Program-made: the position numbers and the translations under genes | NCBI RefSeq assembly: GCF_013389455.1 | Contig: NZ_CP058278.1 | Location: 3,472,001 to 3,536,000 of the forward strand | Length of the DNA: 64,000 bases | Reading direction: 5' to 3' | Source of the DNA: Flavobacterium inviolabile | GTDB taxonomy: Bacteria; Bacteroidota; Bacteroidia; Flavobacteriales; Flavobacteriaceae | In this document: positions 12,722 through 57,351 of the stretch, piece by piece | Numbering within the stretch: the first letter of the stretch is position 1 | Layout of the letters: each line of letters begins with the position of its first letter | The notes under the pieces: model-generated | Seen by the model: the letters and a program-made list of their open reading frames with translations, nothing else | The model's database searches: none | Told to the model about the DNA's origin: nothing

Positions 12722-14251
12722 TTAATCTGTACATGGTTTATTTTTCACGACTCCTTTAGAATCAACCTCCAGTTTTTCTAAGGTTGTAAAATCTGCATTT
12801 ATTTCAAATAATGATATTCCTAAATTTGCCTCTTTTATAAAATTCAAAAATGCTTTTTTATCGTCATTAGGATTACTATTTACTTTTATACTTCCTTCTT
12901 CAATTTCATAGTACTTATCTTTTATCATCTTCATTTTCATCAGTCTTTTTGTATCAACAACGGTTCCTACTGGTTGATCAAATGGATAATAATGAAATTC
13001 TTTTAGACAAGAGACACAATCTATAGTCATTGCATATCGCGTGCCATCAGCTGTAAATACATAAAAAACAAATTCATTAGCATCAATATGATTATTTTGC
13101 ACTAATCTACTAATTGTGGCAATATCATTCCAAGAAAAAACAGAATATGTGCCATTGCCATCGGGACCATAAGCATCATGAGTATGTGCCAGCATTTCAT
13201 ATTTATATGCCGGGTTTATATCAATATTAATAATTCCTGCAGTTCCTGATGGTATGTTTTGAATTGGATTTACAGAAGTTGCTGTAGCACTCTTATCTAT
13301 AAAAATACCGTTTTCATGATTTTCCGAGGTAGTCTCTGCCAAGTTTATTAATTTCTGTTTTAATTCCGGAAATTTTGCCAATTGCTTATTGATTTTTTTA
13401 CAATTAGAAAGTACTTCTTCTTCCCCTTCCAACACCGGCACTGTTGTAAAATCAGGACAACGCGGACAAGGATTCGGCGGTGTCAGCCCATCATCATTTC
13501 CGGGTTCGCCATCACCGCCGCCACCTCCGGTACCGCCCATACCATCACCACCGGAATATTGTCCGGCGCCGGCACCAAAACTGCCGCCTCCGGCTACCAT
13601 ATCGCAGGTCGTGGTGGTTACCTCAAACAAGTGGTTCGGGTTGTTGCAATACTGAGTCGCCACATGCGGTGTGGTCGATCCGCTTCCCGACCAGGACTGG
13701 TCACACATCATCACTGTTGCCGTAACACAGACTATTTTTTTCCCTGCCAGCTCTGCATTGTATTCAATTGGTGTAATGCGGATCGCTCCGCTAAAATAAA
13801 AGGATTCGTGCGTGACACTCGGAACGATAGGTACTTCCGGAGTATATTTTACGATAAAAGCCCTGGTTGAGCCTGGATTATCCGTATGGATCACCAGGTT
13901 TTCAAAACAGGTACTGTCCGGTGTTTCCCGGACGATCTGAAAGGTATAGGAGGTTTTCCCTTCTTTTTCGATGACAATCGCTTTATCCGGTAAAATCGTA
14001 AAGCCGTATTGGGCTTCCATGATTGTTCCGGAGAAGCTGCCTTTGCCGTGTTTGCCTTTGTTTAAGCCGGAAAGTGCCTGTACAAAGGGCTGTTCCTTTG
14101 AGAGCGCTTCAAAAGTGCTGTTGCGTATGGCAAGCCGTTCCCGGTAAGCATTCTTCTGAATAACATCTTCTTCCAATTCACATCCGGTGAGCAATCCCCC
14201 AAGTATAAACAATACGGCATAACAAATGGTTTTAATTTGTTTTTGATTCAT
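12722..14251 (-). CDS. lipoprotein with JAMM/JAB-like C-terminal domain (locus A, variable-tip)
   Basis: This 509-residue lipoprotein has a signal with lipobox LLTGC (Cys24). Residues 1-275 are almost identical to the locus B protein: by eye only three conservative substitutions (E/D, K/R, I/V). This part has a beta-rich domain, then a Gly-rich linker (about residues 220-250) and a CPRCPDF segment. After Glu275 the two proteins are unrelated in sequence. The A tip contains E313 in an E-x-G context, H356-T-H358 and S373-x-x-D376, which fits the JAMM metallopeptidase pattern (Glu, HxH, SxxD), although the HxH-to-Ser spacing is longer than usual. A toxin or peptidase effector anchored at the envelope is the likely role (inference). 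Confidence 0.75.
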   Translation of the reverse strand: MNQKQIKTICYAVLFILGGLLTGCELEEDVIQKNAYRERLAIRNSTFEALSKEQPFVQALSGLNKGKHGKGSFSGTIMEAQYGFTILPDKAIVIEKEGKTSYTFQIVRETPDSTCFENLVIHTDNPGSTRAFIVKYTPEVPIVPSVTHESFYFSGAIRITPIEYNAELAGKKIVCVTATVMMCDQSWSGSGSTTPHVATQYCNNPNHLFEVTTTTCDMVAGGGSFGAGAGQYSGGDGMGGTGGGGGDGEPGNDDGLTPPNPCPRCPDFTTVPVLEGEEEVLSNCKKINKQLAKFPELKQKLINLAETTSENHENGIFIDKSATATSVNPIQNIPSGTAGIINIDINPAYKYEMLAHTHDAYGPDGNGTYSVFSWNDIATISRLVQNNHIDANEFVFYVFTADGTRYAMTIDCVSCLKEFHYYPFDQPVGTVVDTKRLMKMKMIKDKYYEIEEGSIKVNSNPNDDKKAFLNFIKEANLGISLFEINADFTTLEKLEVDSKGVVKNKPCTD

Positions 14252-14483
14252 AATCTCGCTTTTAGATTTACAAATAGTACCTGTTTACCGGGCAGTACTT
14301 TTGTGGGTTTACACAAAAAACACCCGGTGCAGCAAAAAGGCTATTCCTGTTGCTGTTTGTTTCGGTTATATGGGGAACGATAACCGTATGTTATTTTAAT
14401 GGGGAGTGTATGTTGTTGTTTTACAACAGGATAAACATAAAGCTTTATTTTGAGATATACAAATAATATTTAGAATAATGTTT
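13427..14483 (-). repeat. inverted repeat copy A (about 1.06 kb; leader plus lipoprotein N-terminus)
   Basis: This segment matches 56296-57351 in the opposite orientation, with a few substitutions and one or two single-base indels. It includes about 230 bp upstream of the ATG and 825 bp of coding sequence. Identity ends sharply at the codon for Glu275 on one side and near an A/T-rich run on the other. Confidence 0.93.
14414..14428 (-). promoter_or_regulatory. conserved palindrome TGTTG-N5-CAACA in the locus A leader
   Basis: TGTTGTTTTACAACA is an inverted repeat about 165 bp upstream of the lipoprotein ATG. The same element appears at 56351-56365 in locus B, with a changed centre but intact arms. 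This is what one expects of an operator or RNA hairpin. The binder is unknown. Confidence 0.45.
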
Positions 14484-14534
14484 AAAAAAAACAAAATACT
14501 GCGCTATAGTTATTACATTTCTACAGGTATTTTT

Positions 14535-14939
14535 TTAGCGGAGGTTTTTCTTATTCCGGTAATAAAGCGAAAAAGGATGCCCCAACCGCAGCAGCAGCAA
14601 GACCAAAAGCAGTAAGATTCCTTCTGCAACCGCCGCTTTGACATGGTGTTCCAGCAAATAGAAGCCGCTTATGACCACAAATCGTGAGGCCATTAAAAAA
14701 CAGCCCCATACAAATGCAGCCGGAAACAATATTATAACAGTATTTAAAACGGTCACGATTCCCAATACCATAATCCCCTCAGTAGAAAAACCACATTCAT
14801 AAAAAATGGCAACCAGGCTGGGCTTTCCGGTAATCAGGTCAATGCCTTTGAACAGTTCTTCAATTACTAAAAATACCGTGAGCAATATGCTGATATACCG
14901 CCCTAATTTCCCCGTTACCCTAACCCTTTTAGCTTCCAT
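14535..14939 (-). CDS. small integral membrane protein, unknown function
   Basis: This 134-residue protein has about four hydrophobic segments (residues 14-32, 55-73, 76-97 and 102-118). The N-terminus is basic (MEAKRVRVTGKLGRYIS) and the C-terminus is basic (YYRNKKNLR). The layout recalls small DoxX-like or phosphate-starvation-type membrane proteins, but no defining motif is visible, so I give no function. It sits just upstream of the locus A leader on the same strand, outside the duplicated segment. It has no counterpart at locus B. Confidence 0.65.
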   Translation of the reverse strand: MEAKRVRVTGKLGRYISILLTVFLVIEELFKGIDLITGKPSLVAIFYECGFSTEGIMVLGIVTVLNTVIILFPAAFVWGCFLMASRFVVISGFYLLEHHVKAAVAEGILLLLVLLLLRLGHPFSLYYRNKKNLR

Positions 14940-15012
14940 ATCAATCTCTTTTTTCGTATTGCTACCTGTAATTCCTTTTTAAACGTCATGTTATAACCAA
15001 CCACTTTTATTA

Positions 15013-15039
15013 AAAGAAGGGGCATAAAGCCCCTTCTTT
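15013..15039 (-). terminator. strong intrinsic hairpin below the T9SS cassette
   Basis: An 11-bp perfect stem (AAAGAAGGGGC / GCCCCTTCTTT) encloses a 5-nt loop and is flanked by T/A-rich sequence on both sides. It is about 310 bp downstream of the stop at 15353. It can serve as the terminator of the minus-strand operon 15353-19786. Confidence 0.65.
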
Positions 15040-15040
15040 A

Positions 15041-15071
15041 ATTTACCACTGGTTGCAGTCCCGTGGTAAAT
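15041..15071. other. second hairpin next to the terminator
   Basis: ATTTACCAC (15041-15049) pairs with GTGGTAAAT (15063-15071) over a 13-nt loop. It directly abuts the 15013-15039 hairpin. No U-tract follows, so it may be an RNA structure or a protein site rather than a terminator. Confidence 0.4.
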
Positions 15072-15352
15072 CCTAAAAACCAAAAAAAACTAACTTCCTG
15101 CTAAAGCTATTCACTTTGTGTGACCCTACCGGTCAACACTATTCTTACTAAGATCTCCAGTGTCCTCATAAATATAGCACCTCTTCCCTGTCACGTTCTT
15201 CTAAGATCACATCATACTATTATGGCCAAACAAATTGATTTCTTAAACCCCCATTAAAAAACCGCGATGGTACCATAAATCAAGACAATGCAGGAAAGAA
15301 GGCTATATCAAAACAACAGATTGGTAAATCTTACTAATACAGTCTATTTTAT

Positions 15353-17566
15353 TTATTCTTTTTCCGGTGCCTGATCTTTCAGGATAATAATGAATTCGGA
15401 ACGCCGGTTAAGCTCATGTTCGGCTTCTGTACATTTCACACCATTACCGCAATTGTTAATCAGCTGTGACTCTCCATAACCGTCACCCCAAATTCTTTCC
15501 GGAGAAATAGCACCTTTATGGATAATATAATCGATGGTCGCTTTTGCCCTGTTTTTGGATAGCCTCATGTTAAAGTCATCCTTCCCTCTGCTGTCTGTAT
15601 GCGAACGGACCTCAATGGAAATACTCGGACGGTTCTTAATCAGGTCAATCACTTTATCCAGTTCTTTTTCGGATGATTTCCGGATGCTGTAGCCTCCGTA
15701 ATCAAAATAAATCGGATTCAGTTTTAGTTTTTCCGTAAGGTCATCCCCTTCTTTCAGGGTTACGACCTTATCATCCACAATTACCGACAGTTCGTTAAAC
15801 AAGGCTACCGATATTTCTTTACGTTCTGAAATTTTCACCCCGTCCACAAGCACTTTCTCGGAAGCATATCCTTTCTTTTTAAACAGGAACGTATGGTTTC
15901 TGAGCGGTGGCAGATCCAGTGTATATTTTCCGAGTGAATCCGTTAAAACCGTTTTGATTTTTTCATTCCGTTCGTTGAAAATAACCACGCTCACGCCGGC
16001 TATCGGCTCCGTTGTCATGCTGTCTTTTACCGTACCGAAATAAACGGCATTCAGGTTAAACGGAAAGCGGATCGGCTTGTTTTCCAGAAATTCATACAGA
16101 TCATCATCGCCGCTGCCGCCCGGTTTGTTCGAGGTAAAAAAGCCTCTTTTTGTTTCGTTGTCAATCACGTAGGCAAAATCGTCATAGACCGAATTAACCG
16201 GTTCGCCGATATTGACCACCACATAGGTACCGTTACTGTCTTTTGCCGCAGCAAAAATGTCCAGACCACCCATACCGGGATGCCCATCTGAAGCAAAATA
16301 TAATATTCCGTTATCGTCTACAAAAGGAAAGGTTTCCCTGCCCAGTGTGTTGATCTTGTCGTCCAGTGCTTCCACCTTTGATTCCAAACCGCCGCCTTTT
16401 TTCCTGTTTACCACATAGATATCGGTATTTCCCATCTTATTTTTCCGGTTGGAAACAAAAAACAACTGGCTGTCGTCCGGGCTTAGAGCCGGATGTCCGG
16501 AAGAAGCGCCATCTACATTTATCGGATACGGAAGCTGCACAATATTTGTCCAGACCCCGTTGATTTTCTGTGCCTGATAAAGTTTTAGCTGACTGACTTC
16601 CTTTTTATTTTTTCCGGCTGTTTTTTTGTTGTGATACAATTCCAGACGGGTAAAATACATCATGGTGCCGTCTTTCGTAATTACCGGTGTACTCTGGTGG
16701 TACCGGGCATTAATATCGCCGGGCAGCTTCTTTTCATTTTCCAGTCTTCCTTCATTGTTAATCGTTGCGGTATATAATTTCAGGAACGGCTTTTCGTTCC
16801 AGTTGTGTTTGCGTTTGATAAAAACGCCGGAATCTTTTGCTGTTGCATAGATAATTTCCTTGTATTTGGGCAGCTGCTCAAATACTTTTACCGGCACATC
16901 TTCCTTATTTTTATTTTTTGCAGCGGTTTCGCTTCTTGCTGCCAGGGCACGCTCGTCGTCATCCATTCGCTGCTCTTTTTTTTCTCTGGCTATTCTTGCT
17001 TTTTCTTCTTTTTCAAACTGGGCAATTTCTCCCGCCTGCTTTATGGTTTCTTCGTTGGGTACTAAAGCCGCCCCCATGTCGGACAAACCGGAATTTATCC
17101 TTGCTTCCGTTATGTCATCATACCTTCCGGACTGTTCCGCTATTGCGGCCATATATTCTTTTAACCGCCATTTTTTAGCTTCTTCCTCTTTTCCCATTTT
17201 GGAATAATAGTTTTCCATAGCCGTTAATGCCTGGGAATAATCCTGATTGGCGCGTAACGCCTGCGAATACCTGAAATAGTATTCCGGAGCCGGTGTTCCG
17301 CCCAGGTCCATTAGTTTGGCATACCATTCCAGGGCTTTGGTATAGTCCGAATTAAAATAATAGGTGTCGCCCAAACGGCCGTATACTTCTTTGGTCGTAT
17401 AGCCTTTTTCAACCAGTTGTCCGTATAATTTCCGGGCTTCAATAAAGGAAAACTCCTCATATTTTTTGTTGGCTTTTTCCAGTCTTTTATCCGGTTTTTG
17501 TGAGAATCCGACAGTACTGCTTAAACCGAAAAGTAAAACCAATACCAGATTTCTATTTAATATCAT
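15353..17566 (-). CDS. OmpA-family protein with TPR and PD40 repeats, T9SS-associated
   Basis: This 737-residue envelope protein has a signal peptide (about 1-22), TPR-like helices (25-150), a Lys/Glu-rich charged stretch (170-225), PD40/WD40-like beta-propeller repeats (about 250-490), a carboxypeptidase-regulatory-like domain (about 510-590) and a C-terminal OmpA peptidoglycan-binding domain (about 620-730; IYFDYGGYSIRKSS, SHTDSRGKDDFNMRLSKNRA). Proteins of this kind are routinely encoded next to PorP/SprF and a large sorting-domain protein in flavobacteria. It probably links outer-membrane PorP/SprF to peptidoglycan. It is 21 bp after the PorP/SprF gene. Confidence 0.92.
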   Translation of the reverse strand: MILNRNLVLVLLFGLSSTVGFSQKPDKRLEKANKKYEEFSFIEARKLYGQLVEKGYTTKEVYGRLGDTYYFNSDYTKALEWYAKLMDLGGTPAPEYYFRYSQALRANQDYSQALTAMENYYSKMGKEEEAKKWRLKEYMAAIAEQSGRYDDITEARINSGLSDMGAALVPNEETIKQAGEIAQFEKEEKARIAREKKEQRMDDDERALAARSETAAKNKNKEDVPVKVFEQLPKYKEIIYATAKDSGVFIKRKHNWNEKPFLKLYTATINNEGRLENEKKLPGDINARYHQSTPVITKDGTMMYFTRLELYHNKKTAGKNKKEVSQLKLYQAQKINGVWTNIVQLPYPINVDGASSGHPALSPDDSQLFFVSNRKNKMGNTDIYVVNRKKGGGLESKVEALDDKINTLGRETFPFVDDNGILYFASDGHPGMGGLDIFAAAKDSNGTYVVVNIGEPVNSVYDDFAYVIDNETKRGFFTSNKPGGSGDDDLYEFLENKPIRFPFNLNAVYFGTVKDSMTTEPIAGVSVVIFNERNEKIKTVLTDSLGKYTLDLPPLRNHTFLFKKKGYASEKVLVDGVKISERKEISVALFNELSVIVDDKVVTLKEGDDLTEKLKLNPIYFDYGGYSIRKSSEKELDKVIDLIKNRPSISIEVRSHTDSRGKDDFNMRLSKNRAKATIDYIIHKGAISPERIWGDGYGESQLINNCGNGVKCTEAEHELNRRSEFIIILKDQAPEKE

Positions 17567-23748: not shown

Positions 23749-26700
23749 TCACATTCCTAGTTTTGTCAGCTTTTTTTCAAGGCTGTCCATTCTTTCCTGC
23801 AATGCTTTTATCTCCTGATCTTTGGCATCCAACTGTCCCTGCTGCTCAATAATGTGCAGGTACAATTCTTCGATTTTTTCCAACGATTGTATGGAAAGTT
23901 CCGAGATGTTAAAGGAGTATCCTTCTTTTGTTTTTTCCAGCTTCGTGATTGGAGTAATGCCCGGCAAGTGTCTGTTTTTGTTTATAAATGCCTTCGTTTC
24001 TTCCAGCGATTTGAATTTGTAATCTGCTTTTAGATCGGAAGCACCATCAAAATAATCTTCAAAAACATAATCGGCATAGTATCCGTTTGTCGTGGTGATC
24101 GCCCCGTTTACGCGCAGCTTTTCATTTAAAGAGCCGGACGGCGCGGCATGTCCGATACCAACCCAACCCATAGTATACACATCTTCCATATTGGATGTTG
24201 CGCCAATGCTGTTCGTCACACTAAACCACGGTTCTTTTATTAACGGTCTTAAATCAAGTACATTGGTTGTTCCGTCTTCATCTTTATAATCCAGACTGCC
24301 AGCCCCGCTATTACCGGAAGCGTTTACCGTTAATGTGGTTAAGGTTTCAGCATCGCCCACCAGATCCTGCATTGCCAGTTCGTTTGCCGTACCCGCTTCA
24401 TCTGTATACACCAGTTTATGTGTTGTGTCGTTGTACGCTAATGCTGTTACCGTTTCATTGATGTTTGTTGTGGCACCGTCTTCATTCGTATAAACGGCAA
24501 TCTGATGCCCGGGAACAGTACCGGTTATGGTTGTGGTGGTCTCTTCGGCATCGATAATCTGGGTAATTTCATTTACAAACTGCTGATTTGTTACCAGGTT
24601 TGAAATAAACGTAGGATTGCTCGAAATAGCCGTTACCGGCATCGCTACCGCTACCGCCTGGTTATCGGTCAACGTCAGGTTATCATTGGTAATCGCTAAA
24701 CTCTGGTTGATGTTGTTTGTATCCAACCCGTTTATTAAAGCGGTCAAGTCAACTACAGTAGAATCTCCATTCTCATCGGTATACGTCAACGTACCGTTTG
24801 CTGAACTGTACACCAAAGTGGTTAAGGTTTCCGCTCCGCTTACCAGACTTAACAGATTCAGTGTATTAGCAGTACCATCTTCATCCGTATACGTTAGTGT
24901 ATTAGCCATTGGGTTATACGTCAAACTGGTCAGCGTTTCCTGATTCTGGATAATTGTTGTCAGGTTTGTAATAAACTCTGAGTTCTGTGTCAGGTTATCA
25001 ATAAAGGTATTGTTACTGGCAATATCTGCAACCGGCATCGTTACTATCACGCCCTGGTTATCGGTCAAAGCCAGGTTATCATTTGTATCGATTGCCAAAC
25101 TCTGGTTAATGTTGTTTAATCCTTCCGTGGTAATAATATTCGTAATATCATTGATAAACTCCGAATTTTGCGTCAGGTTATCAATAAAGGTATTGTTGCT
25201 GGAAATATCCGTAACCGGCATCGTTACCACCACACCCTGGTTATCGGTCAGAGCCAGATTATCATTTGTATCGATTGCCAATGTCTGGTTGATGTTATTC
25301 GTGTCCAGTGCGCCTACCAAAGTAGCCAGATCTATTACTGTATCATGATTATCCTCATCCGTATACGTCAGCGTATTCGCCGTTGCGTCATACTCCAAAT
25401 GGGTCAACGTTTCCTGACTCTGGATAATCGTTGTCAGGTTTGTAATAAACTCTGAATTCTGCGTCAGGTTATCAATAAACGTAGTGTTACTGGAAATATC
25501 CGTAACCGGCATCGTTACCACCACACCCTGATCATCGGTCAAGGCCAGGTTATCATTTGTATCAATTGCCAACGTATGGTTGATGTTGTTTGTGTCCAGT
25601 CCACCTACCAAAGCTGCCAAGTCAATTACTGTATTTTGATTATCTTCATCCGTATAGGTCAGTGTATTGGCCGTTGCGTCATACTCCAAATGGGTCAGCG
25701 TTTCCTGATTCTGGATAATCGTTGTCAGGTTCGTAATAAACTCTGAGTTCTGCGTCAGGTTATCAATAAACGTAGTGTTACTGGCGATATCCGTAACCGG
25801 CATCGTTACCACCACACCCTGGTTATCGGTCAGAGCCAGATTGTCATTTGTATCGATTGCCAACGTCTGGTTAATGTTGTTTGTGTCCAATGCACCGACC
25901 AGAGTAGCCAGATCGATTACTGTATCATGATTATCCTCATCCGTATACGTCAGCGTATTGGCCGTTGCGTCATACTCCAAATGGGTCAGCGTTTCCTGGC
26001 TCTGGATAATCGTTGTCAGGTTTGTAATAAACTCTGAGTTCTGCGTCAGGTTATCAATAAACGTAGTGTTACTGGCGATATCCGTAACCGGCATCGTTAC
26101 TACCACACCCTGATTATCGGTCAGAGCCAGATTGTCATTTGTATCGATTGCCAACGTCTGGTTGATGTTGTTTGTGTCCAGTGCACCTACCAGAGTAGCC
26201 AGATCGATTACTGTATTTTGATTATTTTCATCCGTATACGTCAGCGTATTCGCCGTTGAATCATACTCCAAATGGGTCAGTGTTTCTTGGCTCTGGATAA
26301 TAGTCGTTAACTCGGTTAAAAAGTTTGAACTGTTTAGAATCGTATTCGCATTGTTAATCACATCAGCGACCACATCAATGGTGGTTGTCGTATTATTTTC
26401 ACTCGTATATATATACACACCACTGGCTGTATTGACCAATGTGGTAATCGTTTCATAGGTTTTAACAATTGCCTCAAAATCAATTACAACCGGGTTTCCG
26501 TTTTCATCAATATAGGTAAATATATTTGTTGTCGGATTATAGATCACCACACCTTCAGACGGGGTTGCTTCACTGGAAATAACGATTCGATTCCATTTGT
26601 TATCATACCAGTAGTAATACCCCGGTGTCACATTATTGGGTGCCGTCCCTGCCGTAGCACTGTTAAACACCAATAAACTGTTCGGTATTCCTCCATTATT

Positions 26701-43394: not shown

Positions 43395-43475
43395 ATTGCC
43401 TTTTGCTTATTGCCATTTGCATTTGCATTTGCTCATTGCCCCTTGCCTTTTGCCCCTTGCCTTTTGCCTCTTCCT
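43395..43475. repeat. low-complexity TTGCC(N)TTTGC tract
   Basis: The stretch is made of imperfect repeats of TTGCC and TTTGC, for example CATTGCCCCTTGCCTTTTGC, between the adaptor stop and the lipoprotein gene. A shorter run of the same kind lies at about 27780-27823. Its role is unknown. Confidence 0.75.
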
Positions 43476-44563
43476 TATTCCCTCTTAACCATCATCCCCT
43501 CCTCAATTTCTTCCGTTGCTTTCAGCAGTATCTTATCGCCTTCTTTCAGGCTTCCGAAAACCTCAACCAGCTCCGGCAGCGAACGCCCTTTTGATACGGT
43601 GATGTGCTTTGTTTTCCCGTTAGCCACGCCAATCACATACAATCCCGTATTGCTTTCCACCAAAGCTGTTTTCGGGACAAAAAAGGTTGCTGTTTTTGCC
43701 TGTAACGGCAATACGGCTTCTACGACCATCAACGGTTTTAAATCATTGTTCGGATTCAGGATGTCTGCTTCAATGCGTTCGGAACGCAGTTTGAAATCCA
43801 GCACACCGGATTTACGGGAAATTCTTGCGGTATATTTCTTTTCGGGTAGTGACACCACTTTAAAAGGAATCGAATCCCCCAGATTTAAATAAGGCGTATG
43901 GGCTTCCGGCACCGAAAAGGATACCCTTAGTTTTTTTAGATCCTGCAAAACCAATAACGGTTTATCGGAACCTTTGCCCATAGGGCCCACATAGGAACCC
44001 AGATCCACATTCCGTTCCGCTACGATACCGTCAAACGGCGCCCGAATAACCAGGTAATCCGTCATAATCTGTATTTCCTGACAGGCTGATTTTGCTGCTT
44101 CCAGCTGCGCCTGATCGGCTAACTTCCGGGCGGTAATCTGGTCCAATGCATCTTTGGCAATAGCTCCAACGGTCTGGTTGGCTTTAAACAAACGGTCATA
44201 ATTGGCTTTTGTAGCAATATAAATCGCTTCCTGGGCTTTCCATTTCGATTTGGCCGCAACTAACTGTGCCTGGATTTCCGGTGCTTCCAGTGTCATTAAA
44301 ACCTGGCCTTTCGTTACCGTAGTTCCAATATCGACCGCCAGTTTTTTAACATAGCTGTTTACCTTGGCATAAATCGCGGTTTTCTGGTCGGCTGCTAATT
44401 CCCCGGCCAGTTTTAGCGGAATCAGCGGATTTTGTTTCGTCACGGCAACCGTTTCAAAACTTTGCATCATCATTGGCTTTGCCGGTGCTGCTGCTTTATT
44501 TTTATCGTTGGAATTACAGGATACCAATACTATTCCTATAAGCGTATAATAGATTAACTTCAT
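43475..44563 (-). CDS. RND efflux periplasmic adaptor (second system), lipoprotein
   Basis: This 362-residue CusB/CzcB-like adaptor has the lipobox VLVSC (Cys at about 16). The lipoyl hairpin is at about 65-95 (YVKKLAVDIGTTVTKGQVLM) and 165-200 (IRAPFDGIVAERNVDLGSYV). The C-terminal membrane-proximal domain ends EGDKILLKATEEIEEGMMVK. It is 4 bp after the permease gene. The pumped metal or compound cannot be named; a metal link is inferred from the two Cys-rich neighbours. Confidence 0.92.
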   Translation of the reverse strand: MKLIYYTLIGIVLVSCNSNDKNKAAAPAKPMMMQSFETVAVTKQNPLIPLKLAGELAADQKTAIYAKVNSYVKKLAVDIGTTVTKGQVLMTLEAPEIQAQLVAAKSKWKAQEAIYIATKANYDRLFKANQTVGAIAKDALDQITARKLADQAQLEAAKSACQEIQIMTDYLVIRAPFDGIVAERNVDLGSYVGPMGKGSDKPLLVLQDLKKLRVSFSVPEAHTPYLNLGDSIPFKVVSLPEKKYTARISRKSGVLDFKLRSERIEADILNPNNDLKPLMVVEAVLPLQAKTATFFVPKTALVESNTGLYVIGVANGKTKHITVSKGRSLPELVEVFGSLKEGDKILLKATEEIEEGMMVKRE

Positions 44564-44567
44564 GATG

Positions 44568-47500
44568 TTACTTTTCTAATGTTAAATAATGAATACTGTT
44601 TTCATCGTCCGGATCCAGTGACGGAGATGTTGTAGCGGTTTTATGCTGGATCCACACAAAAACCAACGGTAATAAGACCAATACGCTGAAGGAAGAGGCT
44701 ATTAATCCGCCAATCACCGCTCTTCCCAACGGAGCAACCTGGTCACCGCCTTCTCCATGACCAATTGCCATTGGCAGCATTCCGGCTATCATCGCCAAAG
44801 TGGTCATTATAATTGGACGGATCCGTAAAGATGCCGCCTGTAGCGCCGCCTGCATGGCATCGCCATTTTGCAGGCGTAAGGCTTCGGCATTACTGATCAG
44901 TAAAACAGCATTGGCAATGGAAACTCCAACAGACATAATGATTCCCATATACGATTGCAGATTCAGTGTTGAGCCGGTTATTTTCAGCAGCAGCAACGAT
45001 CCTAGGATTACAAAAGGAACCGTCGTCAGGATTACAAACGACACTTTAAAAGACTGGAAATTTGCAGTCAGCATCAGGAAAATCACCACAATTGCAATTA
45101 ATAATCCGGCAGCCAGACTGTTCATGGTTTCATCCAGTACCGGCACCATACCGGACACCTGAACATTCACGCCTTTGGGCAGTTCTCCTAAAGAAGCAAT
45201 AGCAGCCTGTACGTCTTTCTGAGCTCTTCCCAGATCGGACTGGTGGATATTTGCCGTTACCGGAGTGTAGCCCATCGTTCCCAGATTGTAGCTTTCGCCC
45301 ATTACTTTTGTTGGCGTAACGGTGGCAACATCTCCTAAAACCGGGCGGTCCCCGTTTTTCCCAAGAGGAGTATTCAGCAATGCTTCTTTGCTGTTCAGCA
45401 GGTTTTGAGGCGTTTGCACCTGTACGTCATAGGCAATTCCCATCATACCGCCTACCCACATATTCTTACTGGTATAGCGGGAGGATGCCGTTGTAGGAAT
45501 CAGCGAACGGCTTATATCCTGCGCATCAATCCCCAGTTGTGCCGCCCGTATCCTGTCTATATTAATCTCAAATGCAGGATACTGCAACGACTGAGGAATC
45601 TGCTGGTCGCGCAGGTAGTCGATTTCTTTTAGTTTTGCCAGTAATTTATTCGCATACATCACATTCATTTTTTTCATCATTCCCGAAAAACGAACTTCAA
45701 TAGGCGTATTCGTTCCCTGGCTCAGGATCTTCTCGGTCAGCTCTATCGGTTCAAAAGAAAATTGTATCGCCGGCATTTTCTCTTTCATGTGTTTCCTGAT
45801 TTTTTCTTTTAATGCATTGGTGTTTCCGCTAAAGTCCTTTAATGCCACCTGCATTAAGGCTTCGTGCGGACCGGCATTGTAGAGATAGATCGGGCTTACG
45901 GCGAAGGACGAAGGATGCTGTCCTATAAAAGCCGAAGAAATAGCAATGTGCTCTTTCCCGATAAGGGTTTCCAGTTCCCGTAAAGACTGTTTGATTATCC
46001 GTTCTGTTTTTTCAATACGGGTTCCTTCCGGTGCTTTGATGCGCACCTGAAACTGGCTGGAGTTAACCGTTGGCAAAACGTCTTTCCCGGTCAGGCTGAA
46101 CAGTACAAAAACACTCAGCAATACCAGTACAAAACTGCCAATGATAACCGGTTTCCGCTTTGGCATCAACCGCTGTACAAACTGTACAAAACGGTTTTTA
46201 AACCGATCGAATGCATCCGGCTGCTGTTCGTGCTGTCCGGCCTTGTCTTTCATCAGCCAGTTCGCCATTACCGGAACAAACGTCTGGGACAATATAAAGG
46301 AAAATACCATTGAAAATCCAATAGCCAGTGCTAATGGCATAAACAATGAACCCGGTATGCCCGTCATCATAAAAGCCGGGGCAAATACCGCCAGGATACA
46401 AAGCAGTATCAGCAATTTAGGAAAGGCTATCTCTTTACAGGCATCCAGAATGGCCCTTGCCCTGGTTTTGCCCATAGCGAGGTGCTGGTGAATGTTTTCA
46501 ATGGTAACGGTACTTTCATCCACAAGTATACCGATAGCCAGTGCCAGTCCGGACAGGGACATGATATTGATACTCTGCCCGAATAGTTTCAGGAACAATA
46601 CTCCGGAAATAACCGATATCGGAATGGTCAGCACCACAATTAAAGCGGCTCTCCTGTCACGCAGAAACAGTAACACCATTAATCCGGTCAGGATGGCTCC
46701 TAAAATACCTTCAACAATCAGGCTTTTTACGGCATTGATCACATATACCGACTGGTCAAATTCATACGAAATGGTTACATTTTCCGGTAAATTGTTCTGG
46801 ATGACCGGGATCGCTTTTTTCAGATTCCTGACCACGTCCCAGGTGGAGGCATTCCCCGATTTGGCAATATTGATATAAACGGAACGGACACCGTTAATCA
46901 AGGCATATCCGGTTGTAATATCGGCACCGTCCTTTACCGTTGCAATATCACGGATATAAATATTATCCACACCGCCTTTAAAAACCGGGATGTTTCCAAA
47001 ATCGGCCACATCTTTAATCGTGTTGTTTGTCGGCGTCAGGTAATTCGTGTCCGCTATATAAATATTTCCGGACGGCGAAGTGATGTTGTTGCGGTTTATC
47101 GCTTCTACCACCTGTTCCGGTGTTAACTGGTGGGTACGCAGTTTATTCGGATCGATATTGATCTCAATCGTTCTCGGGCTTCCTCCAAAAGGCGGAGCAG
47201 TTGTTAAACCGGGAATCTTAATCAGGAACGGACGTGCCGTAAAATTGGCGATATCCTGCAATTCATTATTGGTTTTATCCGGACTTCTGAAAACCAATTG
47301 GCCTACCGGCTGGGAAGAAGCGTCAAAACGGATGATAAACGGCGGTGGGGCACCCGGCGGTAAAAATACCTGCGAACGATTGGAAAGTGCATTGATTTCG
47401 GCTATTGCCTGTCCCATATCGGTTCCTTCATAAAAGTTAACTTTCATCAGCGTCAATCCCTGGGTATTTTTTGTTTCAATGCTTTCGATTCCGCTGGTAA

Positions 47501-47717
47501 ACAGCATCATGTTCACATACATCTTGGTAAAATAGCCTTCCATTTGCTGCGGCGTATAACCGTTAAAGGAATGGGCTATATAAACAACCGGAAGATTCAT
47601 ATCCGGCAGGATGTCGACTTTTATTTCTTTAGTAGCTTTAATCCCGAAGAATAAAAGCCCTAATACCATTACCATAACGGAAATGGGTTTGCGCAAGGCA
47701 AAGCGTATTAAATTCAT
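44568..47717 (-). CDS. RND efflux permease (second system)
   Basis: This protein has 1049 residues from the ATG at 47717. An open frame to 47798 would overlap the TolC gene and adds 27 non-helical residues, so I reject it. The first helix is MNLIRFALRKPISVMVMVLG, then the periplasmic porter domains and the central helices (GLALAIGILVDESTVTIENI is the R/D-motif helix with the proton-relay Asp). The second half shows SYMGIIMSVGVSIANAVLLI. It resembles AcrB/CusA relatives without clear metal-binding Met residues. It is 12 bp after the TolC gene. Confidence 0.93.
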   Translation of the reverse strand: MNLIRFALRKPISVMVMVLGLLFFGIKATKEIKVDILPDMNLPVVYIAHSFNGYTPQQMEGYFTKMYVNMMLFTSGIESIETKNTQGLTLMKVNFYEGTDMGQAIAEINALSNRSQVFLPPGAPPPFIIRFDASSQPVGQLVFRSPDKTNNELQDIANFTARPFLIKIPGLTTAPPFGGSPRTIEINIDPNKLRTHQLTPEQVVEAINRNNITSPSGNIYIADTNYLTPTNNTIKDVADFGNIPVFKGGVDNIYIRDIATVKDGADITTGYALINGVRSVYINIAKSGNASTWDVVRNLKKAIPVIQNNLPENVTISYEFDQSVYVINAVKSLIVEGILGAILTGLMVLLFLRDRRAALIVVLTIPISVISGVLFLKLFGQSINIMSLSGLALAIGILVDESTVTIENIHQHLAMGKTRARAILDACKEIAFPKLLILLCILAVFAPAFMMTGIPGSLFMPLALAIGFSMVFSFILSQTFVPVMANWLMKDKAGQHEQQPDAFDRFKNRFVQFVQRLMPKRKPVIIGSFVLVLLSVFVLFSLTGKDVLPTVNSSQFQVRIKAPEGTRIEKTERIIKQSLRELETLIGKEHIAISSAFIGQHPSSFAVSPIYLYNAGPHEALMQVALKDFSGNTNALKEKIRKHMKEKMPAIQFSFEPIELTEKILSQGTNTPIEVRFSGMMKKMNVMYANKLLAKLKEIDYLRDQQIPQSLQYPAFEINIDRIRAAQLGIDAQDISRSLIPTTASSRYTSKNMWVGGMMGIAYDVQVQTPQNLLNSKEALLNTPLGKNGDRPVLGDVATVTPTKVMGESYNLGTMGYTPVTANIHQSDLGRAQKDVQAAIASLGELPKGVNVQVSGMVPVLDETMNSLAAGLLIAIVVIFLMLTANFQSFKVSFVILTTVPFVILGSLLLLKITGSTLNLQSYMGIIMSVGVSIANAVLLISNAEALRLQNGDAMQAALQAASLRIRPIIMTTLAMIAGMLPMAIGHGEGGDQVAPLGRAVIGGLIASSFSVLVLLPLVFVWIQHKTATTSPSLDPDDENSIHYLTLEK

Positions 47718-47728
47718 AATTTCGGGGT

Positions 47729-49114
47729 TTAGTGTATAGCGTTCAGTAAAATGTTCAGATCGCCCATAGCGGCCGCTTTGATCCATAAGGCCTGCCAAAT
47801 ATTGTTCTGTGCGATTTCATACTCGATTTCTGCTCTGTTGAGCATATAGAATGCCTGGGTCAAATCGACAATGGTTGTTAGTCCGTTGTCGTACAAAGCC
47901 GTATGCTGACGATAAGCATCGTCTGCCGCTTTTACCTGGGTTTTCGTTTCTTCAAAATTCTCAAGGGCATTTTTGAGTTTATCGGCTGCCCATAACTGCT
48001 GCGCTTTAAGCTCCTGCTGCGTATAATCGTATTCCTTTTGCAGGGATTCCGTTATGAATTTTTGTTCCCGTATTTTCGAAGATTGCCGGTACAGGCTGGT
48101 CAGGTTCCAGCTCATCGTCAGCCCTACAATATAGTTGCTGCGGTCGATCCCTGCGCCATCCGAATAGGTTTTGGAAAAAGCGCTGTTATCCTGTACATAA
48201 TTCCAATTAAAACCCGAACCGCGTCCCTGCAATACCCCAAATGCGGCAAGCGTGGGAAGTCCCAAAGCCGATTGCAGTTTTTCCTGCTGCCCGCTTTTTG
48301 TAACAACACTTTTTTGCCATTCAAGTACCGGGTGCGCCGTTAGGTCTAACGCTGTTTCCGATGCAAAAAGCGGCATCGTAGTGGTAAAAACACTGTCCAG
48401 TTGGTAATGCGCATACTCCTCACCCAGCATGACCGCCAAGGTTTTGGAATATTCCAGCTCCATGTCAAACGCTTTTATCCTCGCCGACTGTGCATTGGCT
48501 ACTTCAGCTTTGGCAACCGAAAAGTCTACACCGGGAATCAATCCGCTGTTCGCACGGCTTTCGGTCGTTTCGGCAACAACTTTGGCCCGTTCCAGGTTTT
48601 TCTCCTGTACATACTTGATGCGCTGTGCTGCCAAAAGATTAAAATAGGCAGCGCCTACTTTGACTTTATGCTGAAACTTGGTTTGTTCTAAGTCCTTGTT
48701 TGCTACACTTTCATCTGCTTTTGCAATGGCAACCTGGTTTTTGAGTTTGCCGAAAGTAAAGAGATTCCAGTTTACATTGGCTAAATAAAGTGATCCGAAA
48801 GCGGCATTCCAGTTTTGTTCGGCCAGCGGCATGGATGTCGAGGCGACTCCCAAACCGCCATAGCCATATAAAGGTCCGTTTTGGGCATTAATAGTCCCGA
48901 AACTTTGTTGGGCTACCAGGGTCAGATCTGGTAAATACTGACTTTTTTGATACTGTATCGTTTGTTTTGAAGCTTTTTGTACCGCTTCTTTGGCTTTTAT
49001 TTTTTCGAAATTCTGAACAGAACGTTCAAGCGCATCAGCCAGTTTTGTGGTTTGTCCCTGGACGGATCCTGCGACAAAGCATAGCACTGACCATGCAAAG
49101 AATTGCATTTTCAT
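47729..49114 (-). CDS. TolC-family outer-membrane efflux channel
   Basis: This 461-residue protein has a signal peptide (MKMQFFAWSVLCFVAGSVQG) and two repeats of coiled-coil helices with barrel strands (SVQNFEKIKAKEAVQKASKQ, ARIKAFDMELEYSKTLAVML, RAEIEYEIAQNNIWQALWIK). It forms the exit duct for the RND pump encoded next to it. It is the second gene of the operon, 76 bp after the HYC_CC_PP-like gene. Confidence 0.93.
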   Translation of the reverse strand: MKMQFFAWSVLCFVAGSVQGQTTKLADALERSVQNFEKIKAKEAVQKASKQTIQYQKSQYLPDLTLVAQQSFGTINAQNGPLYGYGGLGVASTSMPLAEQNWNAAFGSLYLANVNWNLFTFGKLKNQVAIAKADESVANKDLEQTKFQHKVKVGAAYFNLLAAQRIKYVQEKNLERAKVVAETTESRANSGLIPGVDFSVAKAEVANAQSARIKAFDMELEYSKTLAVMLGEEYAHYQLDSVFTTTMPLFASETALDLTAHPVLEWQKSVVTKSGQQEKLQSALGLPTLAAFGVLQGRGSGFNWNYVQDNSAFSKTYSDGAGIDRSNYIVGLTMSWNLTSLYRQSSKIREQKFITESLQKEYDYTQQELKAQQLWAADKLKNALENFEETKTQVKAADDAYRQHTALYDNGLTTIVDLTQAFYMLNRAEIEYEIAQNNIWQALWIKAAAMGDLNILLNAIH

Positions 49115-50877: not shown

Positions 50878-51306
50878 TTAATCCGTTTTTAGATTGTCCT
50901 GAACAAATTGCCAGCAGTATTCTTTAATACTTTGTCTTACTTCCCGAAATTGCCGGTGTATCTCCGGAAGCGTTCCGGTAGCCTGAGCCGGATCGGGAAA
51001 GTTCTGGTGCAGCTTTTGCGCTTTTGTCGGGAAAAACGGGCAGCGTTCTTTTGCATTATCACAAACGGTAATTACAAAATCGAAAGCGATGCCGGCATAT
51101 TCATCAATACTATTTGATGTATGCCCGCTGATATCCACACCGTCTTCTTTCATTATGGCAATAGCCAAAGGGTTCACACCGTGGGTTTCCACGCCTGCAC
51201 TGTAAATTTCGGCAGTATTGCCTGCAAAATGACGTAAATAACCTTCTGCCATCTGGCTTCTGCAACTATTACCGGTGCAGAGTATGAGTACTTTTTTTGG
51301 GGTCAT
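50878..51306 (-). CDS. arsC: arsenate reductase, thioredoxin-coupled (LMW-PTP type)
   Basis: This 142-residue cytoplasmic enzyme reduces arsenate to arsenite. The P-loop C-x5-R (C10, R16; LCTGNSCRSQ) and the redox pair C82 and C89 (TVCDNAKERC) match the pI258-type ArsC positions exactly. It overlaps the Acr3 gene by 38 bp at the operon's 3' end, so the proteins are coupled in expression. The reducing partner would be thioredoxin. Confidence 0.95.
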   Translation of the reverse strand: MTPKKVLILCTGNSCRSQMAEGYLRHFAGNTAEIYSAGVETHGVNPLAIAIMKEDGVDISGHTSNSIDEYAGIAFDFVITVCDNAKERCPFFPTKAQKLHQNFPDPAQATGTLPEIHRQFREVRQSIKEYCWQFVQDNLKTD

Positions 51307-52333
51307 AAAATTGTTTTTTAAGGTATAAACTTGTTCGGACTAACAGGATCAAGACGGGAACTTCTATCAAAGGCCCGATAACGCCAGCAAAGGCTTGCGG
51401 AGAATGGATTCCAAACACACCTATGGCTACAGCGATAGCGAGTTCGAAGTTGTTTCCTGTTGCGGTAAACGCCACGGCAGCATTTTTATCGTAAGGAATG
51501 CCAAAAGCTTTGCCGGTAAAAAAACTGATCAGGAACATCAGTACAAAATAGAGCAGCAAAGGGATGCTCACTTTAATTACGTCTTTGGGAAGTGCTAAAA
51601 AAGCTTCTCCTTTCAGGCTGAACATCAATACAATTGTAAACAACAGTGCATAGAGCGTAAAGGGACTTATAAAAGGCAGGAACCGGTTTTGAAACCAGTG
51701 TTTTCCTTTCATTTTTATACAAGTGTACCGGCTTAAAAAACCAAGTACAAAAGGCAATCCCAGGTACAGCAATACGCTTTCGGTTACATCCCGCATCGGA
51801 ACCGCAATATTAAAGCTACCGATTCCTAATTTTTCCGGTAGCACATTCAGAAACAGCCATACATAAAAACTATAGGAAAAAATCTGAAAAATACTGTTTA
51901 AAGCAATTAGTAAAGCGGCATATTCCCTATTGCCTTTTGCCAGATCGTTCCAGACAATGACCATCGCAATACACCTGGCTAACCCGATTAATATCAGGCC
52001 GGTCATATAGGCCGGTTCATCCCGCAGCAGTATGACTGCCAAGGTGAACATCAGTAATGGTCCGACTATCCAATTGAGTATCAAAGAAACGGATAATACC
52101 GTTTTGTTCTTAATCGCTTTCGGCAATAAGCCATACTCTACTTTTGTCAGCGGCGGATAAAGCATTAACAGCAAACCTATTGCCAGCGGAATATTGGTAG
52201 TTCCCCAGGACAGGCTGTCGATTAGCGTGGTTATACCCGGAAAGATATTCCCCAACAGTATACCGAAAAGCATTGCCAGAAAAATCCACAGGGTCAGATA
52301 CCGGTCTAAAAAACGAAGTTTGGTCTGCATCAC
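51269..52333 (-). CDS. acr3: ACR3-family arsenite efflux transporter
   Basis: This 354-residue integral membrane protein has about ten helices. The conserved Cys of the family sits in LIGLARCIAMVIVW (C121), and further conserved helices include AVAFTATGNNFELAIAVAIG near residue 300. It exports arsenite from the cytoplasm. The start is fixed by the spacing of 9 bp from the DUF6428 gene. The 3' end overlaps arsC in another frame. Confidence 0.95.
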   Translation of the reverse strand: MMQTKLRFLDRYLTLWIFLAMLFGILLGNIFPGITTLIDSLSWGTTNIPLAIGLLLMLYPPLTKVEYGLLPKAIKNKTVLSVSLILNWIVGPLLMFTLAVILLRDEPAYMTGLILIGLARCIAMVIVWNDLAKGNREYAALLIALNSIFQIFSYSFYVWLFLNVLPEKLGIGSFNIAVPMRDVTESVLLYLGLPFVLGFLSRYTCIKMKGKHWFQNRFLPFISPFTLYALLFTIVLMFSLKGEAFLALPKDVIKVSIPLLLYFVLMFLISFFTGKAFGIPYDKNAAVAFTATGNNFELAIAVAIGVFGIHSPQAFAGVIGPLIEVPVLILLVRTSLYLKKQFYDPKKSTHTLHR

Positions 52334-52342
52334 GGGTTCTAA

Positions 52343-52816
52343 TTAGCAGCATCCGGAATCCGGAAAACAACAGGCAGCTGTTCCGGAATGGATTTCTGAA
52401 AGTTTTATTTTTGTTTTTTGCGGCGGTATTCCGCAGGCATCGTTGGCCAGACAGGCCGTTGTTTTATTTTTCAGTATAAAATTGTTCCCGTTAAAATCAA
52501 GATCATATTTTCCGATCGTTTCACTTTGGTATTCCACTTCAATTTCCAGGTCTTCCATTTGTAGTTTTGCTTCGGAAAGTTCTATAATATGAAGCAGTTT
52601 AGCCGGTTTTAAACGGTGTTCATAATCATCAGCATCCCATAACTGGAAGTTGGCTACTTTTTCATGACGAACGGTACCGCCGCAATCTATAAAGTGGCGG
52701 GTAATGATTCCTACTTCTGTTACATGAAAGTGCTCGGGTACAAAACTTCCGTTTTCGAGCTGAAAAGCGACATTATCCAATGCCGGCAGCATTTCTTTTA
52801 CTTGTGATAGTTTCAT
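52343..52816 (-). CDS. DUF6428-family protein of the ars operon
   Basis: This 157-residue cytoplasmic protein is frequently found between arsR and acr3 in Bacteroidota. It begins MKLSQVKEMLPALDNVAFQL and shows a FVPEHFHVTEVG segment. The C-terminus is Cys-rich (SGTAACCFPDSGCC), which suggests arsenite or metal binding. The exact role is not known. It has its own operator-like palindrome 27-42 bp upstream. Confidence 0.88.
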   Translation of the reverse strand: MKLSQVKEMLPALDNVAFQLENGSFVPEHFHVTEVGIITRHFIDCGGTVRHEKVANFQLWDADDYEHRLKPAKLLHIIELSEAKLQMEDLEIEVEYQSETIGKYDLDFNGNNFILKNKTTACLANDACGIPPQKTKIKLSEIHSGTAACCFPDSGCC

Positions 52817-52842
52817 AAATGGTTGTTTTATTTAATTGTAAT

Positions 52843-52858
52843 ATCGCATTATTACGAT
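52843..52858. promoter_or_regulatory. ArsR-type operator, second copy (inside the operon)
   Basis: ATCGCATTATTACGAT is an imperfect palindrome differing at only one position from the one upstream of arsR. It lies between the arsR stop and the DUF6428 start, 27 bp before the latter. Confidence 0.7.
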
Positions 52859-52878
52859 GGTTTGTTTTAAAAAAAATG

Positions 52879-53208
52879 CTAACAGCATTTTTCTATTCCT
52901 GCGTTTTCAATAAAAAAGTTATTGAGTTCGCTTTTGATCTGTTTCCAGCTCTGTTCGTCAATACAATAACAAACACTGGTTCCTTCAATATTTCCTTTTA
53001 TAATCCCGATGTTTTTCAATTCTTTCAGATGCTGGGATATCGTTGCCTGTGCCAGTCCTAACTCTCCGACCAAATCATTACAAATGCAGCTGTTTGCTTT
53101 AATGATATGCTGCAGGATCGCTATCCGCGCCGGATGGGCCAATGCTTTCAGTATGGTTGCCAGCCGGTTTTGTTCTTCGTTAAATATGTCGGATTTGGTT
53201 ACGCCCAT
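52879..53208 (-). CDS. arsR: ArsR-family metal/arsenite-sensing repressor
   Basis: This 109-residue winged-helix repressor has Cys41 and Cys43 (NSCICNDLV) on the recognition helix side and C-terminal Cys108-109 (IEKCC). Both are likely arsenite ligands. The DNA-recognition helix is AQATISQHLKELKNIGII. It is the first gene of the operon, and an operator lies 15 bp upstream of its ATG, so it is autoregulated. Confidence 0.94.
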   Translation of the reverse strand: MGVTKSDIFNEEQNRLATILKALAHPARIAILQHIIKANSCICNDLVGELGLAQATISQHLKELKNIGIIKGNIEGTSVCYCIDEQSWKQIKSELNNFFIENAGIEKCC

Positions 53209-53223
53209 TTTTACTTTTATTAC

Positions 53224-54027: not shown

Positions 54028-54186
54028 CTGCTTATTATATTAATGGTACCGGAAAAAAAGCAGACTAAAATAGCGCTTTTCCCTGAAATCCCGGTTAAAA
54101 ATGGTTTTGTTTATGGAATCGAAAAAACGTTAATATGCTTTTGTTCGGAACGGTTCAGCCGATAGCTGGCAGTACACCATAAAAAA

Positions 54187-54210
54187 AGCTGAAGTTTAAA
54201 AACTCCAGCT
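54187..54210 (-). terminator. terminator of the Ala/Lys/Glu lipoprotein gene
   Basis: AGCTGAAGTT (54187-54196) pairs with AACTCCAGCT (54201-54210) with one mismatch and a 4-nt loop. A run of U follows in the minus sense. It is 22 bp after the stop at 54233. Confidence 0.8.
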
Positions 54211-54232
54211 TCTCTAATTTATTTTTTAAACA

Positions 54233-54637: not shown

Positions 54638-54941
54638 TGATCTATAATTTTTATGGTTTAAACTTATTCCTAAAATTATAAAAAAAATAAATCAATTCAC
54701 TTATTTTCAGTGTAAATCATTATTTTTTAATAAAAAACAAATGATAAATACTTTTTTAAGCAGCTGTTTTTAAATATTTCTTTCTCTATTCCTTAATATG
54801 CATCAACAATGGACTGCTGTTTCAAAACAGCAATGCCGGTTTCGTATATCGGATTTTTATATTTCCGGCACACTTTACTGCTTTATTCTTTTCCTGTTTC
54901 ACAATTAGTCGGTATTTTTGTGTGCTTAAAGTCCTTTCCTA
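54638..54941. other. intergenic region between divergent genes, with a TAnnTTTG element
   Basis: No gene is seen. TATTTTTG at 54913-54920 is a perfect Bacteroidota -7 element (TAnnTTTG), 22 bp before the MFS ATG. No clear -33 TTG is visible at the expected distance. Confidence 0.6.
54913..54920 (+). promoter_or_regulatory. -7 promoter element of the MFS gene
   Basis: TATTTTTG fits the TAnnTTTG consensus, with a start site expected near 54927 and the ATG at 54942. The -33 half is not clear, so this is a moderate-confidence call. Confidence 0.5.
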
Positions 54942-56120: not shown

Positions 56121-56143
56121 CTATTATTTCCTGATAAAATGAT

Positions 56144-56176
56144 AACGGGCGGCTATATAGCTGCCCGTTTTTTTTT
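56144..56176 (+). terminator. terminator of the MFS gene
   Basis: AACGGGC-GGCTA pairs with TAGCT-GCCCGTT (56144-56169), followed by a run of T. It is 24 bp after the stop at 56120. Confidence 0.9.
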
Positions 56177-56295
56177 GGACAGGCACGCCTGAAAAACAGC
56201 AAATTTTCCCCGGGCTGATTTCCGTATCTTTTTGTCTGAAACTACGTTTACATAACGGACAATTGGCTTTTTTTAGAATTAAACACTACTTTTTC

Positions 56296-57351
56296 AAACA
56301 TTATTCTAAATTTTATTTGTATATCTCAAAATAAAGTTTTATGTTTATCCTGTTGTAATACAACAATATACGCTCCCCATTAAAATAACATACGGTTATC
56401 ACTCCCCATATAACCAAAACAAACAGCAACAGGAATAGCCTTTTGCTGCACTGGGTGTTTTTTGTGTAAACCCACAAAAAAACTGCCCGGTAAACAGGTA
56501 CTATTTGTAAATCTAAAAGCGAGATTATGAATCAAAAACAAATTAAAACCATTTGTTATGCCGTATTGTTTATACTTGGGGGATTGCTCACCGGATGTGA
56601 ATTGGAAGAAGATGTTATTCAGAAGAATGCTTACCGGGAACGGCTTGCCATCCGCAACAGCACTTTTGACGCACTCTCAAAGGAACAGCCTTTTGTACAG
56701 GCACTTTCCGGCTTAAACAGAGGCAAACATGGCAAAGGCAGCTTCTCCGGAACAATCATGGAAGCTCAATACGGCTTTACGATTTTACCGGATAAAGCGG
56801 TTGTGATCGAAAAAGAAGGGAAAACCTCCTATACCTTTCAGATCGTCCGGGAAACACCGGACAGCACCTGTTTTGAAAACCTGGTGATCCATACGGATAA
56901 TCCCGGCTCTACCAGGGCTTTTATCGTAAAATACACTCCGGAAGTCCCCATCGTTCCGAGTGTCACACACGAATCCTTTTATTTTAGCGGAGCAATCCGC
57001 ATCACACCGATTGAATACAATGCTGAGCTGGCAGGGAAAAAAATAGTCTGTGTTACGGCAACGGTGATGATGTGTGACCAGTCCTGGTCGGGAAGCGGAT
57101 CGACCACACCGCATGTGGCGACCCAGTATTGCAACAACCCGAACCATTTGTTTGAGGTAACCACCACGACCTGCGATATGGTGGCCGGAGGCGGCAGTTT
57201 TGGCGCCGGCGCCGGACAATACTCCGGTGGTGACGGTATGGGAGGTACCGGAGGAGGTGGCGGTGATGGCGAACCCGGTAACGATGATGGACTGACACCG
57301 CCGAATCCTTGTCCGCGTTGTCCTGATTTTACAACCGTTCCGGTGTTGGAA
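56296..57351 (+). repeat. inverted repeat copy B (about 1.06 kb; leader plus lipoprotein N-terminus)
   Basis: This is the counterpart of 13427-14483 in the opposite orientation. It starts near AAACATTATTCTAAA and ends at the codon for Glu275, where sequence identity stops at once. Confidence 0.93.
56351..56481 (+). promoter_or_regulatory. structured leader of the locus B lipoprotein
   Basis: Three inverted repeats are conserved between loci A and B: TGTTGTAATACAACA (56351-56365), GGTTAT/ATAACC (56394-56415) and TTTTTTGTG/CACAAAAAA (56458-56481). In locus A the arms persist although loops differ, which points to selection on structure or on a protein site. Confidence 0.55.

Follow-up and report, generated by a model that had tools for sequence, protein, structure and literature searches.

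Polymorphic toxin systems, as described in PMC3482391, combine a constant N-terminal trafficking part with a variable C-terminal toxin, downstream immunity genes and tandem immunity loci. A similar layout was found at two lipoprotein genes, W12 and W56, in a stretch of 64,000 nucleotides from Flavobacterium inviolabile (positions 3,472,001-3,536,000 of a single-contig 3.91-Mb chromosome, contig C1 of genome G000; hereafter the window). That is, the first 275 codons of the two genes are nearly identical, the remaining C-terminal parts (hereafter tips) are unlike each other, and genes encoding DUF6705 (PF20448) proteins directly follow each tip. We regard W12, W56 and their paralogs as quite probably polymorphic toxins of the surface-lipoprotein type, with DUF6705 protecting the producer; a toxin-immunity system of the polymorphic kind, carried by a lipoprotein, is the reading we favour, and it would work like SitA and the Rhs/contact-dependent inhibition systems. 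Unlike the proteins described in PMC3482391, W12 and W56 are lipobox proteins of about 500 amino acids (aa) and neither has a Pfam match over cut-off, with only scattered weak matches among the 29 and 33 relatives scanned.

Several described systems share part of this design. The SitA proteins of Myxococcus (PMC5562445, PMC8546572) are portrayed as lipoprotein toxins with N-terminal escort-domain families, polymorphic C-termini and a downstream immunity gene, and are likened here by that description; they differ in being moved by outer membrane exchange and in bearing nuclease tips. A lipobox pattern is present in 34 of the 42 long tip proteins, W12 and W56 included, and in 33 of these 34 at least two acidic residues come right after the cysteine, resembling the surface-export signal described for the phylum in PMC5080379. 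Tox-JAB-1, which is paired with Imm65, and Tox-JAB-2 are, in the account of PMC3482391, JAB-superfamily toxins of Bacteroidetes, with a signal peptide and lipobox described for Imm65, but the toxins are described with RHS repeats. Tox-JAB-1 (PF15659) had no match in the F. inviolabile genome nor among the 29 and 33 lipoproteins; DUF4329 (Tox-JAB-2) had none in the genome, and matched 1 of the 33 lipoproteins at E=1.7e-4 and 1 of the 29 at 0.017. When the tips were aligned by hhalign to templates for Tox-JAB-1 and DUF4329, each built from two sequences, nothing informative emerged. Furthermore, PMC3482391 suggests a nuclease role for toxin JAB domains, whereas the DUF6705 proteins, 139 of 145 of which have a hydrophobic N-terminus and 32 of 145 a lipobox-like motif, appear to be exported (by crude sequence patterns, as for the tip proteins), which favours the envelope over DNA as the target. 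The TANFOR toxins (PMC7073777) are likewise from Bacteroidetes and have variable toxin ends and downstream immunity, but are described as large TANFOR-domain proteins from neighbourhoods rich in type IX secretion system genes. NCBIfam searches with W12 and W56 gave no TANFOR (TIGR02542) match up to E=1, the model's presence in the library being unconfirmed. The W12/W56 system is not assigned to SitA, Tox-JAB-1 or TANFOR. No paper on this lipoprotein class was found among the matches listed, judged by titles and abstract starts, and no publication on DUF6705 was found, which is weak evidence since subscription papers and most preprints lay outside the search.

A constant cassette with different tips

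W12 (12722..14251, minus strand) encodes a 509-aa lipoprotein with a lipobox (LTG followed by CELEED), and W56 (56527..58035, plus strand) a 502-aa lipoprotein, also with a lipobox. BLAST of the window against itself returned the constant part (codons 1-275) as an inverted pair, 13427..14489 on the minus strand and 56290..57351 on the plus strand, with 95.48% identity over 1063 columns (47 mismatches and 1 gap), each copy comprising about 238 bp upstream of the ATG in addition to the codons. Over codons 1-274 there are 32 synonymous and 3 non-synonymous changes (synonymous divergence, dS, 0.19; non-synonymous divergence, dN, 0.005). Both proteins reach ...TTVPVLE and diverge immediately past Glu275, the tips (12725..13426, minus strand, and 57352..58032, plus strand) having 21% identity. 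A first-pass annotation had described a near-identical inverted pair with three amino-acid differences, a common end at Glu275 and outward-pointing genes; aligning the two segments and comparing the gene coordinates bore out all of this, with its coordinates correct within 6 bp. The non-coding leader, 14252..14489 on the minus strand at W12 and alignable in three copies, is probably the promoter region of that gene; the interval 13900-15400 holds 4 promoter-like sites against 3.8 expected and 4 terminator-like sites against 1.2 expected.

The third copy of the cassette belongs to gene g126 at approximately 127.2-128.2 kb (labels of this kind give the kilobase position on the chromosome). It is 96.2% identical to the W12 copy and 96.8% to the W56 copy and has the same 3′ end, behind which follows a third tip. 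Thus W12, W56 and g126 have a common N-terminus despite unlike tips: the three cassettes are 95.5-96.8% identical, their tips 21-29%, and DUF6705 genes lie behind all three. The genome contains seven tip-bearing genes altogether (W12, W56, g126, g1949, g2623, g3719 and g1192), of which g2623 has a stop near the gene end that shortens the protein; in addition, only the N-terminus is left of g1397, and there is one distant relative at 965 kb. The W12 tip shows 58-60% identity to those of g1949, g2623 and g3719 and the W56 tip 76% to that of g1192, while the g126 tip stands alone.

One account of such copies would be plain segmental duplication, one gene having recently been copied twice and its tips replaced later with no ongoing conversion, and the three copies are indeed just 3-5% apart. 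However, their differences are distributed as a mosaic: the 60 variable sites fall into 22 runs, a number as low as which was reached in 0 of 20,000 shuffles, and the longest run private to W12 is 14 sites (p=5e-5). This clustering is a mark of patchwise conversion. Moreover, the tips (dS about 1.2 or more) are far older than the N-termini (dS 0.09-0.19), and tracts that look like conversion occur in two other pairs. In g1949/g2623, dS is 0.011, then 0, up to codon 385, but 0.34 beyond and 0.57 in the first DUF6705 gene. In W56/g1192, the N-termini are unlike, and DNA identity is 92-98% over nt 841-1020, 87% from there to nt 1140 and mostly 60-77% in the remainder of the gene. In both pairs, the last 100-120 codons together with DUF6705 make up the most variable unit, and the two tracts together suggest that the exchange border may be either the tip start or a point behind the JAMM core described below. 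Simple duplication thus seems very improbable, and the sequences support homogenisation of the N-terminal part by recombination while the tips differ, as had been proposed in the first-pass annotation, which mentioned neither the third copy nor the DUF6705 genes accompanying the tips nor the hydrolase-like look of the tips.

Pairwise distances tell a similar story. At the seven loci, the tip and the first DUF6705 gene vary together (Mantel r=0.97, p=0.001), whereas the N-terminus follows neither the tip (r=0.08) nor DUF6705 (r=0.10). When 23 loci from several genomes are compared, the correlation of the N-terminus is 0.35 with the tip and 0.33 with DUF6705, well below that of the tip with DUF6705 (0.86, and 0.84 once the N-terminus is controlled for); for 49 tip genes, tip against adjacent DUF6705 gives r=0.77. 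Further tips on the same N-terminus were also searched for. Besides g126, the public protein P0003 combines a 99% identical N-terminus with a tip that resembles the W56 tip at 78%, and six public proteins with a sister N-terminus, treated below, have three kinds of end. An independent case was found in a genome of another family (G584), in which five loci have a common N-terminus unlike that of W12/W56: 9 of the 10 pairs align at 92-97% over approximately 700-750 bp only and one pair at 78% along the whole gene, two of the five copies being broken. A fixed tip on each copy, with no further copies of the N-terminus, is therefore not what the comparison revealed.

Tip domains and their DUF6705 partners

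In 45 aligned tips (45 of the 48 that passed E<=1e-10 and the length limits, weaker tips being left out) mean identity is 23%, but one E, two H and one D are invariant and one S is conserved in at least 90%. These residues are spaced according to what we take to be the JAMM/MPN+ motif, E ... HxH ... SxxD, and the tip looks like a divergent JAMM metalloprotease-like domain, with E313, H356, H358, S373 and D376 as the candidate metal ligands and catalytic residues of W12; the W56 tip appears to form a second class of the domain (HCH...MFSHAD). Profile searches of PDB sequences returned no JAMM chain among the best 60 of 251 matches for profile A4 (best E 0.0028, mainly through the Gly-rich linker), and none among the 13 matches for profile A5. 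In one genome (G152, contig C1, locus L078, 5881-13186) a full tip gene is followed by two open reading frames that encode only tips, starting with its linker, each with its own DUF6705 gene, an arrangement corresponding to the orphan cassettes of polymorphic toxins; the two are 96% identical to each other over 288 bp, and 74% over 834 columns and 83% over 155 to the full-length gene.

The N-terminal family also carries ends other than JAMM-like ones. The relative at 965 kb (L015:4383-6498; E=1.2e-10, first-round profile 5e-29) ends in Tae4 (E=3.6e-17, over cut-off), an amidase effector family, and the gene after it matches Tai4 weakly (E=0.084, below cut-off). A relative in another genome of the genus, G043, ends in Peptidase_M23 (E=4.5e-9, over cut-off), and the ends of three others (L021, L022 and L023) are SprT-like, below cut-off. 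With residues 20-215 of the 965-kb protein (P0054) as query, five public proteins showed 97-99% identity; in those pairs that align only up to residue 336-347, identity is 94.8-96.7%. The ends of these six are Tae4 (P0054, P0059), C39-like (P0056, P0058, just over cut-off) or SprT-like (P0055, P0057, below cut-off), and we infer that they are alleles of one locus. A common N-terminal region is thus joined to JAMM-like, Tae4, M23, C39-like and SprT-like domains.

DUF6705 matches were obtained in 71 of the 249 genomes sampled from the genus, in 32 of 249 sampled from the family and in 13 of 296 sampled from the phylum (F. inviolabile itself being counted in every sample), and in 0 of 14 control genomes; since no more than 10-12 candidates were scored per genome, counts may be low. 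All 24 matches in the F. inviolabile genome lie behind these lipoprotein genes and none elsewhere. Forty DUF6705 places from other genus genomes were selected for their score and for having enough contig around them (L094 and L102 had already come up in the lipoprotein search), and at 31 of the forty a tip gene lies directly upstream (29 recognized with the first profile, and L093 and L100 with the rebuilt profile). In 39 tip/DUF6705 pairs, own loci included, the DUF6705 gene starts between -57 and +29 relative to the end of the tip gene. In other genera and families, where 20 places were examined (five of the 20 in G584), a tip gene is directly upstream in 11. A partner directly downstream that varies together with the tip is thus the rule, as in polymorphic toxin systems, yet there are exceptions that weigh against a toxin-immunity reading: a small gene intervenes at L120, the lipoprotein at L126 contains a JAMM-like stretch that went unscored, and seven of the 20 places are without a tip gene. 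One of these seven, L112 (3251-8123), has four DUF6705 genes and, two genes upstream, an HExxH-type lipoprotein without a JAMM tip, so that DUF6705 may outlive or serve other tips. At L120, L121, L125 and L126, in another family, a small helix-turn-helix-like gene was seen by eye divergent before the lipoprotein gene.

In the window, the curated PF20448 cut-off is exceeded by 7 of 7 proteins, one behind W12 and six behind W56. W12.D1 (12082..12708, minus strand; E=7.8e-15), 13 bases behind W12, is the predicted immunity gene for the W12 tip, and W56.D1 (58043..58657, plus strand; E=7.3e-46) is the predicted cognate immunity gene for the W56 tip, with 67% identity to the first DUF6705 gene behind g1192, a gene with a W56-like tip. 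W56.D2 (58657..59265) and W56.D3 (59265..59879), both plus strand, are of the D1 class (72% and 81% identity to D1), while W56.D4 (59879..60529), D5 (60529..61173) and D6 (61173..61823), also plus strand, are of the class found beside the g126 tip (77%, 71% and 67%, respectively, D4 being compared with g126.D1). That is, the W56 array consists of three genes of one class and then three of the g126.D1 class, and the g126 array of one gene of the W56.D4-D6 class, two of the W56.D1-D3 class and a shortened one (66% to W12.D1). In 29 arrays of at least two DUF6705 genes, the tip is tracked by the first at 0.82, the second at 0.62 and the last at 0.52 (p=0.0005 for each); in the 23 arrays outside F. 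inviolabile the values are 0.82, 0.48 and 0.37. In Vibrio cholerae arrays of the type VI secretion system (T6SS), as described in PMC5361080, old immunity genes are retained behind the current effector and upstream homology serves as an anchor; the make-up of the g126 and W56 arrays fits the prediction of displacement with retention. The systems differ in that those of PMC5361080 concern T6SS effectors and not lipoproteins, and in that tandem duplication within DUF6705 classes probably adds to displacement here, same-class members looking tandemly duplicated.

These observations also bear on whether the proteins might be housekeeping surface proteases that digest external or own surface proteins, with DUF6705 as a regulator or inhibitor against self-digestion. 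The complete set of JAMM residues would suit this, as would a partner with a hydrophobic N-terminus and a barrel-like structural model (for which Foldseek gave no match at E<=0.001), and M23, SprT-like and C39-like domains are present in ordinary proteases too. We nevertheless consider it unlikely. Different enzyme families, including a Tae4 amidase tip, sit on near-identical N-termini, DUF6705 copies unlike the adjacent one are retained, and the presence of DUF6705 in only part of the genus fits conflict better than nutrition.

The 42-kb interval and other features of the window

The geometry of W12 and W56 would permit inversion of the 42 kb between them, as the first-pass annotation pointed out. 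This part of its proposal found no trace in the sequence. In 8-kb blocks, GC skew is -0.06 to -0.12 from 3,476,001 to 3,524,000, near zero in the blocks at 3,524,001 and 3,532,001, which contain the plus-strand W56 array, -0.02 to -0.11 beyond those and -0.03 to -0.10 in the left flank. One skew sign thus runs through the interval and is resumed in the right flank, and the inversion as a switch is unsupported. W12 and g126 are in direct orientation, and no relative was informative, the three flank genes turning up in too few of the 40 genomes (2, 2 and 7, F. inviolabile counted). Antigenic or receptor variation, with the tips as variable recognition domains (for adhesion or phage escape) switched by repeat recombination including this inversion, would agree with the surface-type lipoprotein signal, the constant N-terminus with a variable tip and the presence of an inverted pair capable of recombining. 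It is hard to reconcile, though, with catalytic-type residues that remain invariant amid divergence, with ends matching other hydrolase families, with the pairing of every tip with its own DUF6705 and with an inversion that left no skew trace, and we hold it to be most unlikely.

A mobile element was not indicated either: W56 had no match in the plasmid collection, W56.D1 none in the phage collection, and neither tRNA genes nor Rfam families over threshold were detected in the window, one sub-threshold Rfam match being judged chance. Elsewhere in the window, two adjoining paralogous genes at 5111-8246 (minus strand; 68.7% identical DNA) have many NTAIG-type repeats, presumably like those of YadA-type adhesin heads, and a predicted 1044-aa protein at 23749-26883 (minus strand) has 291-bp tandem repeats with about 90-91% mutual identity over 25154-26307. 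What looks by eye like an arsenic-type cluster, with an ArsR-like gene, a phosphatase-like reductase and a permease, lies at 50878-53208 (minus strand), not far from a resistance-nodulation-division-like efflux set at 43475-49114.

Proposed mode of action and significance

In the toxin-immunity model that we favour, the lipoproteins would be lipidated and, as the signal motif suggests, displayed on the outer surface, where the N-terminal domain of about 215 aa and the Gly-rich linker would display the tip or deliver it to neighbouring cells. The tip would be a hydrolase active in the target envelope, here a divergent JAMM metalloprotease, and the exported, barrel-like DUF6705 protein encoded directly behind would bind the cognate tip and shield the producer. 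N-terminal cassettes would be homogenised among loci, tip and adjacent DUF6705 would travel as a unit, and displaced DUF6705 genes would remain as a growing array.

More tentatively, the JAMM tips might cut target peptidoglycan cross-links, and the proteins might constitute an entire class of interbacterial toxins of Flavobacteriia, displayed on the surface and neutralised by periplasmic DUF6705 barrels. The peptidoglycan cross-link is a side-chain amine-carboxyl bond whose chemistry resembles that of the isopeptides cleaved by known JAMM enzymes, and this idea matches the Tae4 and M23 tips on the same delivery domain. If true, it would mean a JAMM enzyme acting outside the cell on the wall and not on ubiquitin-like proteins.

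The loci suggest a testable function for the unassigned DUF6705 and for a divergent JAMM-like tip family, and they mark an unnamed carrier domain. Near-identical N-termini with ends from different enzyme families in close public relatives make tip exchange traceable at close range. Furthermore, the two gene pairs with an alike JAMM core, followed by diverged C-terminal 100-120 codons and diverged DUF6705, offer naturally occurring variants with which to ask what portion of a toxin is read by its immunity protein.

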